From Bacteroidota bacterium (GTDB lineage: Bacteria > Bacteroidota > Bacteroidia > Flavobacteriales_F > PHOS-HE28): a DNA stretch of 51,966 nt. The stretch is taken from the NCBI GenBank assembly GCA_014584605.1, contig JACTMO010000038.1, positions 1 through 51,966 on the forward strand. The letters run 5' to 3'. The translations under genes and the position numbers were made by a program. Numbering within the stretch: position 1 is the first letter of the stretch; the number at the start of each line of letters is the position of its first letter. A model generated the notes under the pieces. The model was not told the DNA's origin, searched no databases, and saw only the letters and a list, made by a program, of their open reading frames with translations. Below are positions 28,480 through 36,513 of the stretch, one piece after another.

Positions 28480-29511
28480 TCAGCAACGGGCCTCCAGCCA
28501 CACGAACGAAAGGGCGTTCTCCAAAGGCAGGGTGCCTGCGGTGAGCCCTCCGCCCGAGCGCACCGCCAGCTCCAGCAGGCCCGCGCCGGCCGGGTCACCG
28601 CCCTGCAACGCGGCCCGGTAGCGGCGCTGCAGACCGAGGGCCGAAGCCCGCCCGAGGGCACCGACGGAATCCATCAGGCCCTGTGCCTTCGCCTCCGCGA
28701 AGGTGGCCCCCACGCCCACGTACCGGCCTCCGGTCACCGGTCGTCGCACGGCCAACAGCACAGGCCCGGAGCGCTCGGCCATCGTTTCTTCGATGAGCTG
28801 GGTGGCGGCCAGCAGGCAGCTGTGCAACGGGTCCCCGTCCGGCCCAGGGTCGTGCGCCAGTCCCACCATGGCCGAGAGCTGTGCGGCGGAGGGGTCGCCG
28901 TGCAAGGCAGCCGCCAGCCCCAGGTCCTGTTGTGCCTTGAACAGTTCGGCCACGCTGCCCATGGGCCAGGGAACGGCCTCCCCCAGGACCGCCTGCAAGG
29001 TGAACCGATGCCGGCCCGCGTCCAACGGCTCCAGCATAAAGGCGGGATCGTGGCCGCTGCGACGCGCCATTTCGATGAGACCCAGCCCCGCGCCGCCCTT
29101 GGCCGTGGAGGCATTGGCCTGCAGCACGCTGAGGAAGAGCGCCTTCAACACCTCGGGCGACTTGCCGATCACCTTGTCCAGCGCGGCGCGCAACGCCGAC
29201 AGGTCCGCATCGGCCACAGGGTTCCTGCTGATCACCTGCTGTCCACCGGGCACCGAGCGGAAAAGGAAGCTGCTCTCACCCTCGTCGCCTTCGGCCTGCG
29301 GCCGATGCCGGATGATGTTCTGAAAAGCCTCCACCAGCACGAAGGCCAGCCGTGCCTGCATCCCCTTGGACAAGCCTTGGCGCTCCGCCACGGCCTCGGC
29401 CATTTCGATCAGACGGGCGGTCTGCGCGTCGCGGAACGGGTCGCCCAGGAGGAGGGCAAAGGCGCTGCCGACCAAGGCCCGCTGCAGGCTGTACGCATGG
29501 TGGACCTCCAT
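28480..29511 (-). CDS. Two-domain SiaB-like (DUF6272) protein
   Basis: Cytoplasmic protein of 343 residues. The first half resembles the SiaB-family kinase-like fold (DUF6272): FVLVEAFQNIIRHR carries the ATP-site asparagine, and GGAGLGLIEMARRSG is the glycine loop. The usual family member is about 180 residues. The second half appears to be a second copy with the same order of elements (LLAATQLIEETMAE, then GAGLLELAVRSGG), but the N-box asparagine is gone, so it is probably a pseudo-kinase or regulatory half. SiaB-type kinases act on anti-sigma-antagonist-like SiaC partners in signalling; no siaC-like gene is in the window. It is divergent from the HD-PPK gene with 67 bp between. A -7 box TATCTTTG lies 13 nt upstream. 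Confidence 0.75.
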   Translation of the reverse strand: MEVHHAYSLQRALVGSAFALLLGDPFRDAQTARLIEMAEAVAERQGLSKGMQARLAFVLVEAFQNIIRHRPQAEGDEGESSFLFRSVPGGQQVISRNPVADADLSALRAALDKVIGKSPEVLKALFLSVLQANASTAKGGAGLGLIEMARRSGHDPAFMLEPLDAGRHRFTLQAVLGEAVPWPMGSVAELFKAQQDLGLAAALHGDPSAAQLSAMVGLAHDPGPDGDPLHSCLLAATQLIEETMAERSGPVLLAVRRPVTGGRYVGVGATFAEAKAQGLMDSVGALGRASALGLQRRYRAALQGGDPAGAGLLELAVRSGGGLTAGTLPLENALSFVWLEARC

Positions 29512-29578: not shown

Positions 29579-32269
29579 ATGCGGGCGGCGCAACGCAAGG
29601 ACGTGCTGGAGCAGGCCCGGCTGCATGTGCGGCGGCACTTCAGCAAGCACATCGGCCCGCGTTTCCGGTTCCACGACCTCGAGCACACGCTGGCGGTGAC
29701 GCGCACGGCGCTGGAGATCGGGCGGGCGCACCGGCTGGGCGAGGCCGATCTGTGGGCCCTGGAGCTCGCAGCGCTGTTCCACGACACCGGCTATGCGCGG
29801 GCCTACGCCGGGCATGAGCTGCAGAGCGTGCGGCTGGCGACGGCCTTTCTGCGCGGCAAGGGTGTTCCGGACGGTCAGGTACGGCGCATCGGGTCCCTGA
29901 TCGCCGCCACCCGCATGGGCGAGCGACCGCGGACCCTGCTGCACCGCATTCTGCGCGATGCCGACAGCGCCAAGGCGGGCCAGGCCGATTTCGAAGAGCA
30001 TGGCGCCCGGCTGAAACAGGAGCTGGAGGCCGTGACCGGGCGCAGCATCAAGCGGAGCACCTGGGCCAACGAGAACCTGGCGTACCTGGAGGCGCACCGC
30101 TTCCACACCGCATACGCCGAAAGGCGCTTCGGGGCCCAGAAGCGCATGAACCTGGCGCTGGCGCGCCAGCGGTCGCAGCAGGGGCTCACACCCGCCCCAC
30201 AGGTGCTGGACGACCCGTTCTACGACCGCGACCTCAGCTGGCTGGCCTTCAACGACCGCGTGCTGCAGGAAGCCAGCGACCCGCGCGTACCGCTGCTGGA
30301 GCGCATCAAGTTCCTGGCCATATACAGCAGCAACCTGGACGAGTTCTACCGCGTGAGGGTGGCCTCGCTGCGCTCCCTGGCCAAACTGGGCAAACGCGAC
30401 CGCACGGCCCTCGGTGTCACCACCGAGGCGCTCATCGCCCGGATCAACCGTACGGCCCTGCGCCAGCAACGCCAGTTCGGTCGGCTGTACCGTCGCATCC
30501 TGCTGCCCGCCCTGGCGCGGCACGGCATCCGCATCCTCCCCGTGGACGGGATGGACAAGCGCCAGCACGCCTTTGTGCTCCAGATGTTCGCCACCCGCGT
30601 GGTGCCGCTGTTGCAGACCGCGGAGGTGCGCGTGGGCAATGCGCTGTTCATCGAGGACCGCAAGCTGTACCTGGTGTGCAGGCTGCGGCCGCAGGGCAAG
30701 GGCAAGCGCCTGGAACGGCTGGTGCTGCTGAACGTGCCCAGCGACGCCCTGGGCCGTTTCGTCGTGCTGCCCTCGGCCCGGCGACAGACCGCGCTGCTCT
30801 TCCTGGACGATGTGCTGCGCCTCGGGCTGCGGACCTATTTCGCCGGTTACGAGCTGGTGGACAGCTATGCCGTCAAGCTGAGCCGCGATGCGGACCTCTA
30901 CCTGGAGGAGGAGTTCGGCGAGCGCGTGGTGGACAAGGTGCGGCGCAGCCTGCGCAAGCGTTCCACCGGGGTGCCCAGCAGGTTCCTCTACGACGAGCGC
31001 ATGCCCCGCAGCGTGCGCAAGGCCATGCGGGCGTTGTTGGGGCTCAAGGGCCCCGACCTGGTGGCCGGCGGTCGCTACCATCATTTCAGCGACCTCATGG
31101 CGCTGCCGGTGAGCGGTCATGCCACGTTGCACGACCCGCCACGACCGCCGCTGCCCCGGCCTGGCCCCACCGCACGACGGCGGCTCTTCGACCGCATCGC
31201 CACAGGCGACCTGCTCCTGCACTTCCCGTACCACGACTTCGGGGTGGTGATCGACTGGTTGCGGCAGGCCGCCCGGGACCCCGGGGTACGGCGCATCGCC
31301 ATCACGCTCTACCGGGTGGCCGAACGGTCGCAGGTCGGCGAGGCCTTGTTGGAGGCGCTGAAGGCCGGCAAGGAGGTCACCGTGTTCGTGGAGGTGCAGG
31401 CCCGCTTCGACGAACGGTCCAACCTGCAGTGGGGCGAGCGGCTGGAGGCCGCCGGGGCGCGGGTGCTGTACAGTCTCGAGGGGCTCAAGGTCCACGGCAA
31501 GCTCTGCCTGGTGGAACGACGCGAAGGGCGGCAGCTGCGGCGCTATGCCTACCTGGGCACGGGCAACTTCCACGAGGGCACCGCCCGGCGCTATGCGGAC
31601 TGCGCCCTGCTCACTGCGGACCCGGAGCTGTGCCGGGAAGTGGCCGAAGTGTTCCATCACCTGGCCGACCGTCGGCACACGCCCTTGCTGAAACACCTGT
31701 TGATGGCACCCACCGGGCTGCGCAGCGGAGTGGAAGCCCTGATCGACCGCGAGATCGAACAGGCCCGGCTGGGCAGGCCCTCCGGCATCCTGCTCAAGGT
31801 GAACAGCCTGGAGGACCGTGCGATCATCGGCAAGCTGTACGACGCCTCCCGTGCCGGGGTGCCCGTCCGCCTCATCGTTCGCGGCATCTGCTGCCTGGTG
31901 CCGGGGATCGCGGGCGTCAGCGCGAACATCGCCGGCATCAGCATCGTGGACCGTTACCTGGAGCACGCCCGCGCCTACGTCTTCCATGCACAGGGCAGGC
32001 AGCGGATCTACCTGGCCAGTGCCGACCTCATGGAGCGCAACCTGGACCGACGCGTGGAGGTGGCCTTCCCCCTGCGCGATGCCGCCGCCCGGCAGGAACT
32101 GCTCCAAATGCTGGAACTTCAATGGGCGGACACCGTGAAGGCGCGCATCATCGACGCACACCAGCGGAACCGGTATCGCAGCGTGCCACCAGGCCAGGCG
32201 GAAGTGCGTGCGCAGGAGGACTTCCGCAGCTGGCTGGCCGCGGCGAACCGTTCCCGGAGGAAGGCCTGA
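29579..32269 (+). CDS. ppk1: HD-domain / polyphosphate kinase 1 fusion
   Basis: Fusion protein of 896 residues. Residues about 1-188 are an HD-superfamily phosphohydrolase with its metal residues intact: H32 and H36 in FHDLEHT, H68-D69 in LFHDTGY and D127/D129 in LRDADSA. Residues about 210-896 are a complete PPK1 that makes or consumes inorganic polyphosphate with ATP: FYDRDLSWLAFNDRVLQEA, the phospho-histidine H639 in GLKVHGKLCLV, YLGTGNFHEGTARRY, the second histidine H796 in RYLEHARAY and the C-terminal RIYLASADLMERNLDRR. Ordinary PPK1 is about 690-720 residues, so the HD part is an addition. One uninterrupted frame covers both; an internal Met190 lacks a ribosome site. The HD substrate is unknown (nucleotide, ppGpp or phosphate ester). 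Confidence 0.9.
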   Translation: MRAAQRKDVLEQARLHVRRHFSKHIGPRFRFHDLEHTLAVTRTALEIGRAHRLGEADLWALELAALFHDTGYARAYAGHELQSVRLATAFLRGKGVPDGQVRRIGSLIAATRMGERPRTLLHRILRDADSAKAGQADFEEHGARLKQELEAVTGRSIKRSTWANENLAYLEAHRFHTAYAERRFGAQKRMNLALARQRSQQGLTPAPQVLDDPFYDRDLSWLAFNDRVLQEASDPRVPLLERIKFLAIYSSNLDEFYRVRVASLRSLAKLGKRDRTALGVTTEALIARINRTALRQQRQFGRLYRRILLPALARHGIRILPVDGMDKRQHAFVLQMFATRVVPLLQTAEVRVGNALFIEDRKLYLVCRLRPQGKGKRLERLVLLNVPSDALGRFVVLPSARRQTALLFLDDVLRLGLRTYFAGYELVDSYAVKLSRDADLYLEEEFGERVVDKVRRSLRKRSTGVPSRFLYDERMPRSVRKAMRALLGLKGPDLVAGGRYHHFSDLMALPVSGHATLHDPPRPPLPRPGPTARRRLFDRIATGDLLLHFPYHDFGVVIDWLRQAARDPGVRRIAITLYRVAERSQVGEALLEALKAGKEVTVFVEVQARFDERSNLQWGERLEAAGARVLYSLEGLKVHGKLCLVERREGRQLRRYAYLGTGNFHEGTARRYADCALLTADPELCREVAEVFHHLADRRHTPLLKHLLMAPTGLRSGVEALIDREIEQARLGRPSGILLKVNSLEDRAIIGKLYDASRAGVPVRLIVRGICCLVPGIAGVSANIAGISIVDRYLEHARAYVFHAQGRQRIYLASADLMERNLDRRVEVAFPLRDAAARQELLQMLELQWADTVKARIIDAHQRNRYRSVPPGQAEVRAQEDFRSWLAAANRSRRKA

Positions 32270-33689: not shown

Positions 33690-34574
33690 ATGCCCCTGTC
33701 CGGCTCCCTGATCGAGCGCTTGTGCGAACAGCTCAGCAGGCACACCGGCACCGCAGTGGACATTGAATGGACCAGGCCCATGGGCGGTGGGAGCATCAAC
33801 ACCGCCCACCGCCTGTACAGTAACCTGGGGCGCTGGGTGGTGAAGGTGAACCATGCCGAACGGTATCCCGGGCTCTTCGCGGCGGAGGCGGACGGCCTGG
33901 AGCGCCTGCGGGCCACCGGTGCCGTGCGGGTGCCCGTGGTGGTGGGCCATGGCGAGGACCACGACGATGCCTTCCTGCTGATGGAGCACATCGATGGCGG
34001 CCTGCCCACCACGGCCTCGTGGGAGACGCTGGGTCGGGCGGTCGCCGGCCTGCATCGTCATACCGCGACCGGGTTCGGGCTGGAGCGGGACAACTACATC
34101 GGCAGCCTGCCGCAGCGCAACACACGGGAGGCGGAATGGCCCGCCTTCCTGGTGCAGCACCGGCTGGAACCGCTGGTGCGTCAGGCGCGCGACGCTCACC
34201 GGCTCGATGCCGCCATGGTGCGCCGCTTCGAGCGGCTCCACGGGCGCATCGGTGGGTACTTCCCCACCGAACCGCCGGCCCTGCTGCACGGCGACCTGTG
34301 GAGCGGCAACGTGTTGCACGCGGCCGATGGAACGCCGGTGCTCATCGATCCGGCCGTGTACCATGGGCACCGCGAGATGGACCTCGCCATGGCAAGGCTC
34401 TTCGGGGGTTTCGACGAGGCCTTCTTCGATGCCTATCAGGCCGCGTACCCGCTGGGGCCCGGTTTCGCCGATCGCGTGGAGCTGGCCCAGCTGTACCCTT
34501 TGCTGGTGCACGTGCTCCTGTTCGGCGGCGGGTACACCACCCAGATGGACATGGTGCTGCGGCGCTTCACCTGA
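33690..34574 (+). CDS. Fructosamine kinase family protein
   Basis: Kinase-fold protein of 294 residues, usual for the fructosamine/ketosamine-3-kinase family, which phosphorylates sugars attached to amines and so helps remove glycation adducts. Visible motifs are the glycine region PMGGGSINTAHRL, the ATP-lysine in RWVVKVN, DNYIGSLPQ typical of the family, the catalytic loop H200GDLWSGN207 and the metal aspartate in LIDPAVYHGHREMDLAM. The ATG lies 7 nt after TATCTTGC (33675-33682). The natural substrate in bacteria of this family is usually not proven. Its end overlaps the convergent cytochrome gene by 8 bp. Confidence 0.93.
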   Translation: MPLSGSLIERLCEQLSRHTGTAVDIEWTRPMGGGSINTAHRLYSNLGRWVVKVNHAERYPGLFAAEADGLERLRATGAVRVPVVVGHGEDHDDAFLLMEHIDGGLPTTASWETLGRAVAGLHRHTATGFGLERDNYIGSLPQRNTREAEWPAFLVQHRLEPLVRQARDAHRLDAAMVRRFERLHGRIGGYFPTEPPALLHGDLWSGNVLHAADGTPVLIDPAVYHGHREMDLAMARLFGGFDEAFFDAYQAAYPLGPGFADRVELAQLYPLLVHVLLFGGGYTTQMDMVLRRFT

Positions 34575-36513
34575 GGCGCAGCACGCGGGCCACACGTACC
34601 CGGCCTCCGGCGTCCACCACCAGGTGATAGGTGCCGGGCTCATCGGGCAGGCGGCACCACCAGGCATCGCCCTGGCGGCCGGTGCGGACCGGCACCTCCC
34701 GGCCGGTGGCATCGTAGGCCCGGAGCGTGCCGGGGCCGGCCAGGGTGAAGCGGACGAGCCCGTCCCTGGTCGGATTGGGGAAGATGCCGAGAGCACCGCC
34801 CTGTTCCGCCATGCCCATGCCGAGCACCGACATGGAATCCGCGGCCACCAGGTCCGGCGTGTTGTCCGCCGCATCGTACATGCTGCGGAACGCATCAATG
34901 CGTGCGCCTGAATGGTTGAACATCTCCCGGTTCCAGCGCGGAGGCACCTGCTGGAACCAAACGCGGGCCTTCACCTGCAGCGGACCGTCGTACCCGTTGG
35001 TGGGGATGTGGTAGTGGATGATGTCGCCGCCGTTGCCTTCCAGGCCCAGCGCGTCGTGGTTGAAGTCCGGATCGGTGAGGGCATCGCCGGCGATCACGGT
35101 GGTGTCGTAGCTCGGATGGGAGGTGCTGAAGCCGATCGGCACCAGGCGGTTGTCCTTCAACGGGGTCACGGCGCGCAACAAGGTGGTGGTCACATCACCG
35201 TTCACGTCGCCCATCACCATCTCGTAGATCTGCGCCTGGTCCGGGCGGTCGATCACGTCATAATGCGGCTCAAGGACCGAGTCGTGGCCCAGCACCTCGT
35301 AGTCCGCACCCCAGCCGCCGCTGTGGAACAGGGTGTCGTCCGTGGCGGTGACCGCCACCACCTGCACGAAGGCGCGCCGGTTGGGGAAGCCGCTGGGGAA
35401 CTTGTGGCCGATGATGTTGGTGAGGGCCACGTCCATGTAAAGCGTGTCGGCGGTGCGGTCGGTCATCAGCAGGGACATCTCCACGGAGCTGCGCAGGTGG
35501 CGTTCGCTGCGAGCGATGGTGCTGTCGAACTGTACGGGGGTGGCCGGGATGCCCAGGGGACCGATGTGCGCCTTCATCATCTTCAGCATGAAGGTACCTC
35601 CGCCCGTGAGGTGGTGCTTGCCGAAGGGCGACTGGCCCTCGAGGAAGACGTACTCAGAGGCCAGGGTGATGGAATCCTCGATCCGCGGAAGGTGGCAGCT
35701 GCGGCAGTTCTCCTCGGTGCCGTAATAGACCGAGTTGACGTACTCCTGCCAGACGGTCTGTTCGAAGAAGCTCGTGCCCGTGGGGTTGCCGTTCAGGTCC
35801 ACCGGCTGGTTGATGGCCGTGTGGCATCCGGCGCACACGCGTCCATCCAGGATGTGTGAACCCTGGTCCGGGGTGAAGCCGACAAAGAACTCCATGATGG
35901 CCTCGTTGATCTGCTCCTGGGTGTAGGGTCCCCAGACGCGGGCGCTGTCGAAGTGCAGGTCGCCGGAGAAGTAGTGGCCGGCGGCATCGGGTTTCTGCAT
36001 GTGGCAGGCCAGGCAGGAAACGCCGTCCATGGCCATCACGCTGGTGTCCAGGTGGGCGGCCGTGAAGGGCGGGTTGCCCAGCATCTGCTGTTCGAAGACG
36101 GCGAGCGGGGCGTGGCACTTCAGGCAGTTGTGCTCCAGCTGGGACTGGAGGGCTGGGTTCACCAGCCCCTCATGTTCCATCTTGGCCAAGAAGAAGGGGT
36201 CGCGGGCGCTGTTGGCCATCATGGTGCTGCGCCAGTCGTCCACCACGTTCACGCTCACCCCGTTGCTGTCCACGCTGGCAAGGCCGAGCGAGTCGAAGCC
36301 ATGGCAGCCGGCGCAGCGCCCGGCGGTGACGAAGTAGGTGCCGAACTGGACCGGCAGGCCCTGGATCTGGTCGCGCAGGAAGAAGAGCTCCACGGCGCTG
36401 TGCGGTCCGCGCACCGGGGTGGTGGCGCTGGTCCAGCCCACGAGCATGAACACCACGGCGCACAGCCCGGCGAGCACCCGGAAGCTCCTGGAACCCCAAG
36501 ACCTGCGGATCAT
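34567..36513 (-). CDS. Pentaheme c-type cytochrome with T9SS tail
   Basis: Exported cytochrome of 648 residues. An N-terminal hydrophobic segment (FRVLAGLCAVVFMLVGW) acts as signal or anchor. Five CxxCH haem sites occur at C67-H71, C130-H134, C167-H171, C227-H231 and C270-H274, in the style of cytochrome c554-like multihaem proteins. Residues about 330-540 form a haem-free beta-rich region (DVALTNIIGHKFPSGFPNRR). The last 75 or so residues are a T9SS type A sorting domain (LGIFPNPTRDGLVRFTLAG, LRAYDATGREV). Haem is attached in the periplasm, and the tail predicts later export to the cell surface, which suggests extracellular or surface electron transfer. The redox partner is not in the window. 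Confidence 0.9.
   Translation of the reverse strand: MIRRSWGSRSFRVLAGLCAVVFMLVGWTSATTPVRGPHSAVELFFLRDQIQGLPVQFGTYFVTAGRCAGCHGFDSLGLASVDSNGVSVNVVDDWRSTMMANSARDPFFLAKMEHEGLVNPALQSQLEHNCLKCHAPLAVFEQQMLGNPPFTAAHLDTSVMAMDGVSCLACHMQKPDAAGHYFSGDLHFDSARVWGPYTQEQINEAIMEFFVGFTPDQGSHILDGRVCAGCHTAINQPVDLNGNPTGTSFFEQTVWQEYVNSVYYGTEENCRSCHLPRIEDSITLASEYVFLEGQSPFGKHHLTGGGTFMLKMMKAHIGPLGIPATPVQFDSTIARSERHLRSSVEMSLLMTDRTADTLYMDVALTNIIGHKFPSGFPNRRAFVQVVAVTATDDTLFHSGGWGADYEVLGHDSVLEPHYDVIDRPDQAQIYEMVMGDVNGDVTTTLLRAVTPLKDNRLVPIGFSTSHPSYDTTVIAGDALTDPDFNHDALGLEGNGGDIIHYHIPTNGYDGPLQVKARVWFQQVPPRWNREMFNHSGARIDAFRSMYDAADNTPDLVAADSMSVLGMGMAEQGGALGIFPNPTRDGLVRFTLAGPGTLRAYDATGREVPVRTGRQGDAWWCRLPDEPGTYHLVVDAGGRVRVARVLRLR

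Follow-up and report, generated by a model that had tools for sequence, protein, structure and literature searches.

We found that one gene in the window, the whole 51,966-nucleotide stretch of Bacteroidota DNA analyzed here, encodes a polyphosphate kinase 1 (PPK1) with an HD domain at its N-terminus. The HD part most likely hydrolyzes or senses a nucleotide and couples this nucleotide to polyphosphate synthesis. The fusion gene (29579..32269, + strand) is an open reading frame for 896 amino acids without internal stop; its ATG is preceded by 5 open codons only, and full-length homologous fusions are present in the genus. A domain search of the protein, as proposed in the original prediction, returned a Pfam HD match at residues 34–130 (31.1 bits, cut-off 22) together with PPK1 at residues 214–882, confirming that the two are joined in one frame. 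The HD domain extends over residues 1–203 (29579..30187, +) and was modeled by AlphaFold2 as an all-helical fold of 11 helices with a pLDDT of 97.7; the H...HD...D metal site on this predicted HD fold assigns it to the HD superfamily (PF01966). A poorly conserved linker follows (residues 202–213, 30182..30217, +; pLDDT about 69), and then the complete PPK1 (30218..32224, +), which matches TIGR03705 over its full length with 700 bits (curated cut-off 466), contains four PP_kinase Pfam domains and matches PDB 1xdo with an E value of 1e-153. The full-length AlphaFold2 model has a mean pLDDT of 86.7, with low confidence in the linker around residue 205. The domain set is that of E. coli PPK1 (TIGR03705; 1xdo/1xdp). 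Indeed, the two histidines claimed earlier align with the active site of 1xdo, H639 (31493..31495, +) with the phospho-histidine and H796 (31964..31966, +) with the active-site histidine, which we take to be H435 and H592 in E. coli numbering. The difference from an ordinary PPK1 is the 200-residue N-terminal HD part, which was unseen in the other sampled Bacteroidia and in plasmid records.

The HD active site is intact, as had been read from the window alone. The H32-x3-H36 motif (FHDLEH; 29672..29686, +), the H68-D69 doublet (29780..29785, +), H79-E80 (29813..29818, +) and, in the HD alignments, the two aspartates of D127-A-D129 (29957..29965, +) are unvaried in 31/31 distinct fused homologues; H79-E80 is near-invariant also in the unfused relatives described below. 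Because the site is invariant, the HD part is likely catalytic. Compared with the three nearest relatives, the HD part has a dN/dS of 0.12–0.25, similar to the PPK1 part, which indicates purifying selection. Selection on the HD part within one reading frame implies one protein.

We detected full-length HD-PPK1 in the same frame in 35 of the 45 genomes of the genus, with 53–100% identity; in three further genomes the fusion is in pieces, and no stand-alone PPK1 was shown in any of the 45. Searches at the family and the order level covered these same 45 genomes. The named relatives are metagenome assemblies of Flavobacteriales/Bacteroidota. The two findings that would have spoken against the prediction, a frameshift or assembly join and a translation start at Met190, both failed to materialize: the frame is common to 35 assemblies, and the Met190 column of the 31 fused homologues contains Ile (17), Met (6) and Leu (6), with dN/dS values that are alike in both parts. 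We thus rejected these candidates, and the chance that the gene is an artefact (frameshift, chimeric contig) or encodes two separate proteins is negligible. Separately, PPK1 was undetected in the remaining seven genus members (G016, G019, G025, G029, G032, G034 and G036), and the loss looks real in G016, G032 and G034, since these genomes are 99–100% complete.

Outside of the genus the architecture was not found. At the class level, the PPK1 matches listed for about 380 other genomes start at residue 191 or later, and in a phylum sample of 395 genomes the HD matches listed contain a PPK1 fusion only in the window's own genome; in both searches the weakest matches fall outside those listed, so that a very divergent fusion could escape. 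Among plasmid records, 101 gave matches, none of which covers at least 80% of the query, and no record spans both parts. The proposed count of the architecture across Bacteroidota therefore gives a genus-wide fusion that is unseen elsewhere among the matches listed. In the open literature, with most subscription journals outside its scope, we found no description of an HD plus PPK1 architecture and no paper that links PycTM/DUF5706 or Pycsar with polyphosphate kinase; the fusion is hence a PPK1 variant that is apparently undescribed in the open literature searched.

Where does the HD part come from? Its relatives carry the HD domain in proteins of ~400 residues that contain PycTM (PF18967), the membrane domain of Pycsar effectors, in their C-terminal half. 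The PADLOC models for PycTM and 2TM effectors also match this parental HD-PycTM protein. In the HD tree, the fused HDs group together as a single clade (99/96) that lies inside the HD-PycTM clade (100/100). They are thus members of that HD subfamily, and they stand well apart from the other HD proteins of the window's genome. The tree thereby ruled out C25 and C55, the stand-alone HD proteins encoded in this genome, as the source of the fused HD. The fused PPK1 in turn groups with PPK1s that adjoin HD-PycTM (SH-aLRT 82, then 94, in a tree from a quick method). Judged from these sequences, the fusion arose once, at the base of the genus, from the HD part of HD-PycTM, and we regard its architecture, conservation and origin as established at this level. 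Both proteins (PF01966 + PF18967 in the parent) share the HD subfamily and active-site residues; HD-PycTM ends in a membrane domain, while the fusion has PPK1 in that place.

HD-PycTM is often encoded directly before ppk1. Among 54 loci drawn from the best HD hits, ppk1 lies at most 2 kb from HD-PycTM in 18, and in 16 of these it is downstream on the same strand; nine loci of this sample have a SixA-like gene in between. The ppk1 sample added five more such neighbor loci, and the arrangement is found in at least ten Bacteroidota families. By our estimate, chance would give well under one such case in 54 in a 4-Mb genome. From this recurrent proximity, far above chance, we conclude on genomic grounds that the genetic partnership of HD-PycTM and PPK1 predates the fusion. 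Some relatives of the HD part are built differently. In the protein at L189:5264-6301 (-), HD is joined to two C-terminal membrane helices of another kind, seen by eye, which PycTM does not match. Those at L201:3375-5963 (+) and L202:5102-7741 (-) begin with a sequence that looks TIR-like by eye (YDIFISYRH), also contain a TolB/FlgO-like part and TPR repeats, and carry an HD domain from a sister subfamily at the C-terminus.

A second association concerns nucleotide cyclases. Within the genus, HD-PycTM is preceded by the gene of a class III cyclase in G014 and G018 (in G018 the gene is apparently split across the two contigs C177/C135), G007 has a cyclase ahead of a PycTM protein that lacks HD, and in G017, the sole genus member with a cyclase adjoining the fusion, it lies less than 100 bases behind HD-PPK1. 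The five top matches to this cyclase in the genus, with E values of 7.5e-95 or lower (next match 4.7e-53), all adjoin PycTM, HD-PycTM or the fusion. Outside of the genus, cyclases were found near HD-PycTM and/or ppk1 in L087, L125, L195, L209, L217, L235 and L240, of which L217, L235 and L240 are from one genus and L125 is a weak match. Pfam assigns the cyclases to PF00211, and PycC models match these neighboring cyclases weakly. For the majority of the HD-PycTM loci, no cyclase was detected in the vicinity. Querying with the neighboring cyclases gave no match on the window's contig; the matches in the window's genome lie on other contigs. The likeness to Pycsar (PycC plus PycTM effector) hence consists of the PycTM and 2TM-effector matches of the parental protein and the weak PycC matches of the cyclases. 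Unlike Pycsar, the window contains no PycTM and no pyrimidine cyclase beside an effector; PycTM (PF18967), which defines the effector, is absent from the HD-PPK1 protein and gave no match in the window's genome either, and the likeness gives no sign of a defense role. Pycsar-like operons, made up of cyclase plus HD-PycTM or cyclase plus PycTM, are present in the genus at L164:1161-3617 (-) (G014:C75), at L071:3-1875 (+) (G007:C9) and on G018:C177/C135.

Other neighbors were seen at these loci. At 45 of about 59 HD-PycTM loci the adjoining gene encodes a large Omp85-barrel protein, against 3 of 55 where ppk1 occurs on its own; this uncharacterized conserved pair of Bacteroidota is exemplified by L127:8222-11824 (-), L188:9853-12501 (+) and L187:7522-10149 (-), and a calcineurin-like phosphoesterase domain was detected in the Omp85-barrel neighbor of at least one locus (L188). 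A search for the metallophosphatase/Omp85 partner in the window's genome gave no match, an absence that is not firm. The pairing hints, as far as gene order can tell, at phosphate metabolism at the envelope. In the window itself, the divergent neighbor of the fusion (28480..29511, -) is a SiaB-family kinase-like gene (DUF6272), a homologue of which adjoins the fusion in 19 of the 21 sequence sets compared. Further along, 34570-36513 (-) encodes a multi-heme cytochrome-like protein with CxxCH motifs and weak Mtr/cytochrome c7 matches.

HD folds act on many substrates (review PMC8177086), and the fold alone therefore does not fix the substrate. The structure prediction that had been called for indeed gave a confident fold, which resembles cyclic-nucleotide phosphodiesterases (PDEs) and YpgQ alike. 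VIA-align ranks cyclic-nucleotide PDEs best, with PDE10 at Z 18.7 (196 of 203 residues, 2.9 A); other HD hydrolases are nearly equal (3b57 and 2pq7, Z 17.7), and most PDEs tie with them to within about 1 Z. The likeness to the class I enzymes PDE10, PDE7 and PDE5 is a match of the modeled fold over these 196 of 203 residues, to which most HD-PycTM relatives add a Y-H-N-x-x-H motif comparable to that of PDEs. The identity is 12–19%, however, and the HDxxHxG signature is absent from the HD part; the full class I signature HD[LIVMFY]xHx[AG]xx[NQ]x[LIVMFY] occurs in 0/81 rows of the HD alignment, so that the domain is not a canonical PDE. The HD-GYP region HHExxDGxGYP, searched as HHx[RK]xD, is likewise missing from all 81 rows, which excluded an HD-GYP identity. 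The (p)ppGpp-hydrolase motif of RSH enzymes, HDxxED, is found in 0/81 rows as well, and a ppGpp hydrolase was rejected on this basis. Here the original prediction has to be revised: its architecture, its intact HD site and its hydrolase joined to PPK1 all stand, and its self-limiting control is kept as a hypothesis, but ppGpp as the substrate finds no support, since in addition to the missing motif the HD-PycTM/cyclase context points to a cyclic nucleotide.

The strongest structural competitor is YpgQ, a nucleotide pyrophosphohydrolase. YpgQ with ADP and Lin1889 are the best Foldseek matches of the HD model, YpgQ (5dqv/5dqw) shows the same H-x3-H, HD, D arrangement, and the profile matches of the HD part are to YpgQ/YedJ-type HD proteins. 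Since PPK1 itself acts on ATP/ADP, a YpgQ-like HD could hydrolyze a nucleoside polyphosphate (NTP/dNTP, Ap4A or an alarmone) and adjust the pool of nucleotides that PPK1 uses or that inhibit it. The residues of the YpgQ site are H25, H29, H58, D59 and D124 (PMC8177086), and a R-x3-[YFW] motif after HD is described for YpgQ/PDE-type enzymes (PMC8431786). This motif is missing in the HD part and, like HDxxED, in all 81 rows, the identity to YpgQ is 16–19%, and the association with cyclase and PycTM favors a cyclic nucleotide instead; we therefore consider a nucleoside polyphosphate rather unlikely. Hydrolysis of polyphosphate or pyrophosphate, by which the HD would trim or limit the chain made by PPK1, is kept alive by the hint at phosphate metabolism at the envelope: calcineurin-like phosphoesterase/Omp85 proteins and SixA-type phosphatases are among the conserved neighbors of the parental HD-PycTM, and Foldseek also returns exopolyphosphatase chains, weakly (TM 0.41–0.44). 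The best fold matches, however, are nucleotide enzymes, and Ppx/GppA-family genes are already present elsewhere in the window's genome, so that the HD need not serve as sole polyphosphatase. A role as Ppx replacement is ruled out for this reason, and we judge the whole idea improbable. That the HD senses a ligand or acts as a docking module, and steers PPK1 in this way without important catalysis, seems unlikely to us, though less so. PycTM-type effectors are ligand-activated (PMC11224242), and the parental HD could therefore be their sensor; in the alignment, the fused HDs are consistently distinct from those of HD-PycTM at positions 66 and 130–133, but the metal and catalytic positions are identical in 31/31 fused homologues.

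We tentatively favor a single bifunctional protein in which an HD nucleotide hydrolase, probably acting on a 3',5'-cyclic mononucleotide, is coupled to PPK1. The HD would be a metal-dependent nucleotide hydrolase and the C-terminal part a normal, complete PPK1; in the course of evolution, the HD part of an HD-PycTM encoded beside ppk1 was joined in frame to PPK1, and the membrane domain was left out. A class III cyclase would make the signal, in the likeliest case a 3',5'-cyclic mononucleotide, which the HD domain would bind and hydrolyze. Occupancy or turnover of the HD would then set the activity of PPK1, so that decay of the signal and polyphosphate synthesis may be coupled within one molecule. 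Catalysis by the HD, its substrate and the coupling to PPK1 are what we infer here. The cyclic mononucleotide is our best guess mainly because of the gene neighborhood: descent of the HD from HD-PycTM, which lies beside ppk1 and sometimes beside cyclases, indicates a cyclic nucleotide rather than ppGpp.

The control of PPK1 in bacteria is poorly understood, and the conserved fusion, together with the widespread unfused neighborhood, offers a direct handle on it. Polyphosphate is herewith tied to PycTM, a domain otherwise known from phage defense. One may speculate, with more doubt than for the bifunctional protein itself, that the fusion is a PDE built into PPK1 and that a Pycsar-related cyclase/HD-PycTM pathway controls polyphosphate synthesis in Bacteroidota, with the PDE and PPK1 having become one protein in this genus. 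The prediction that follows is that a nucleotide signal would act on polyphosphate synthesis in Bacteroidota.
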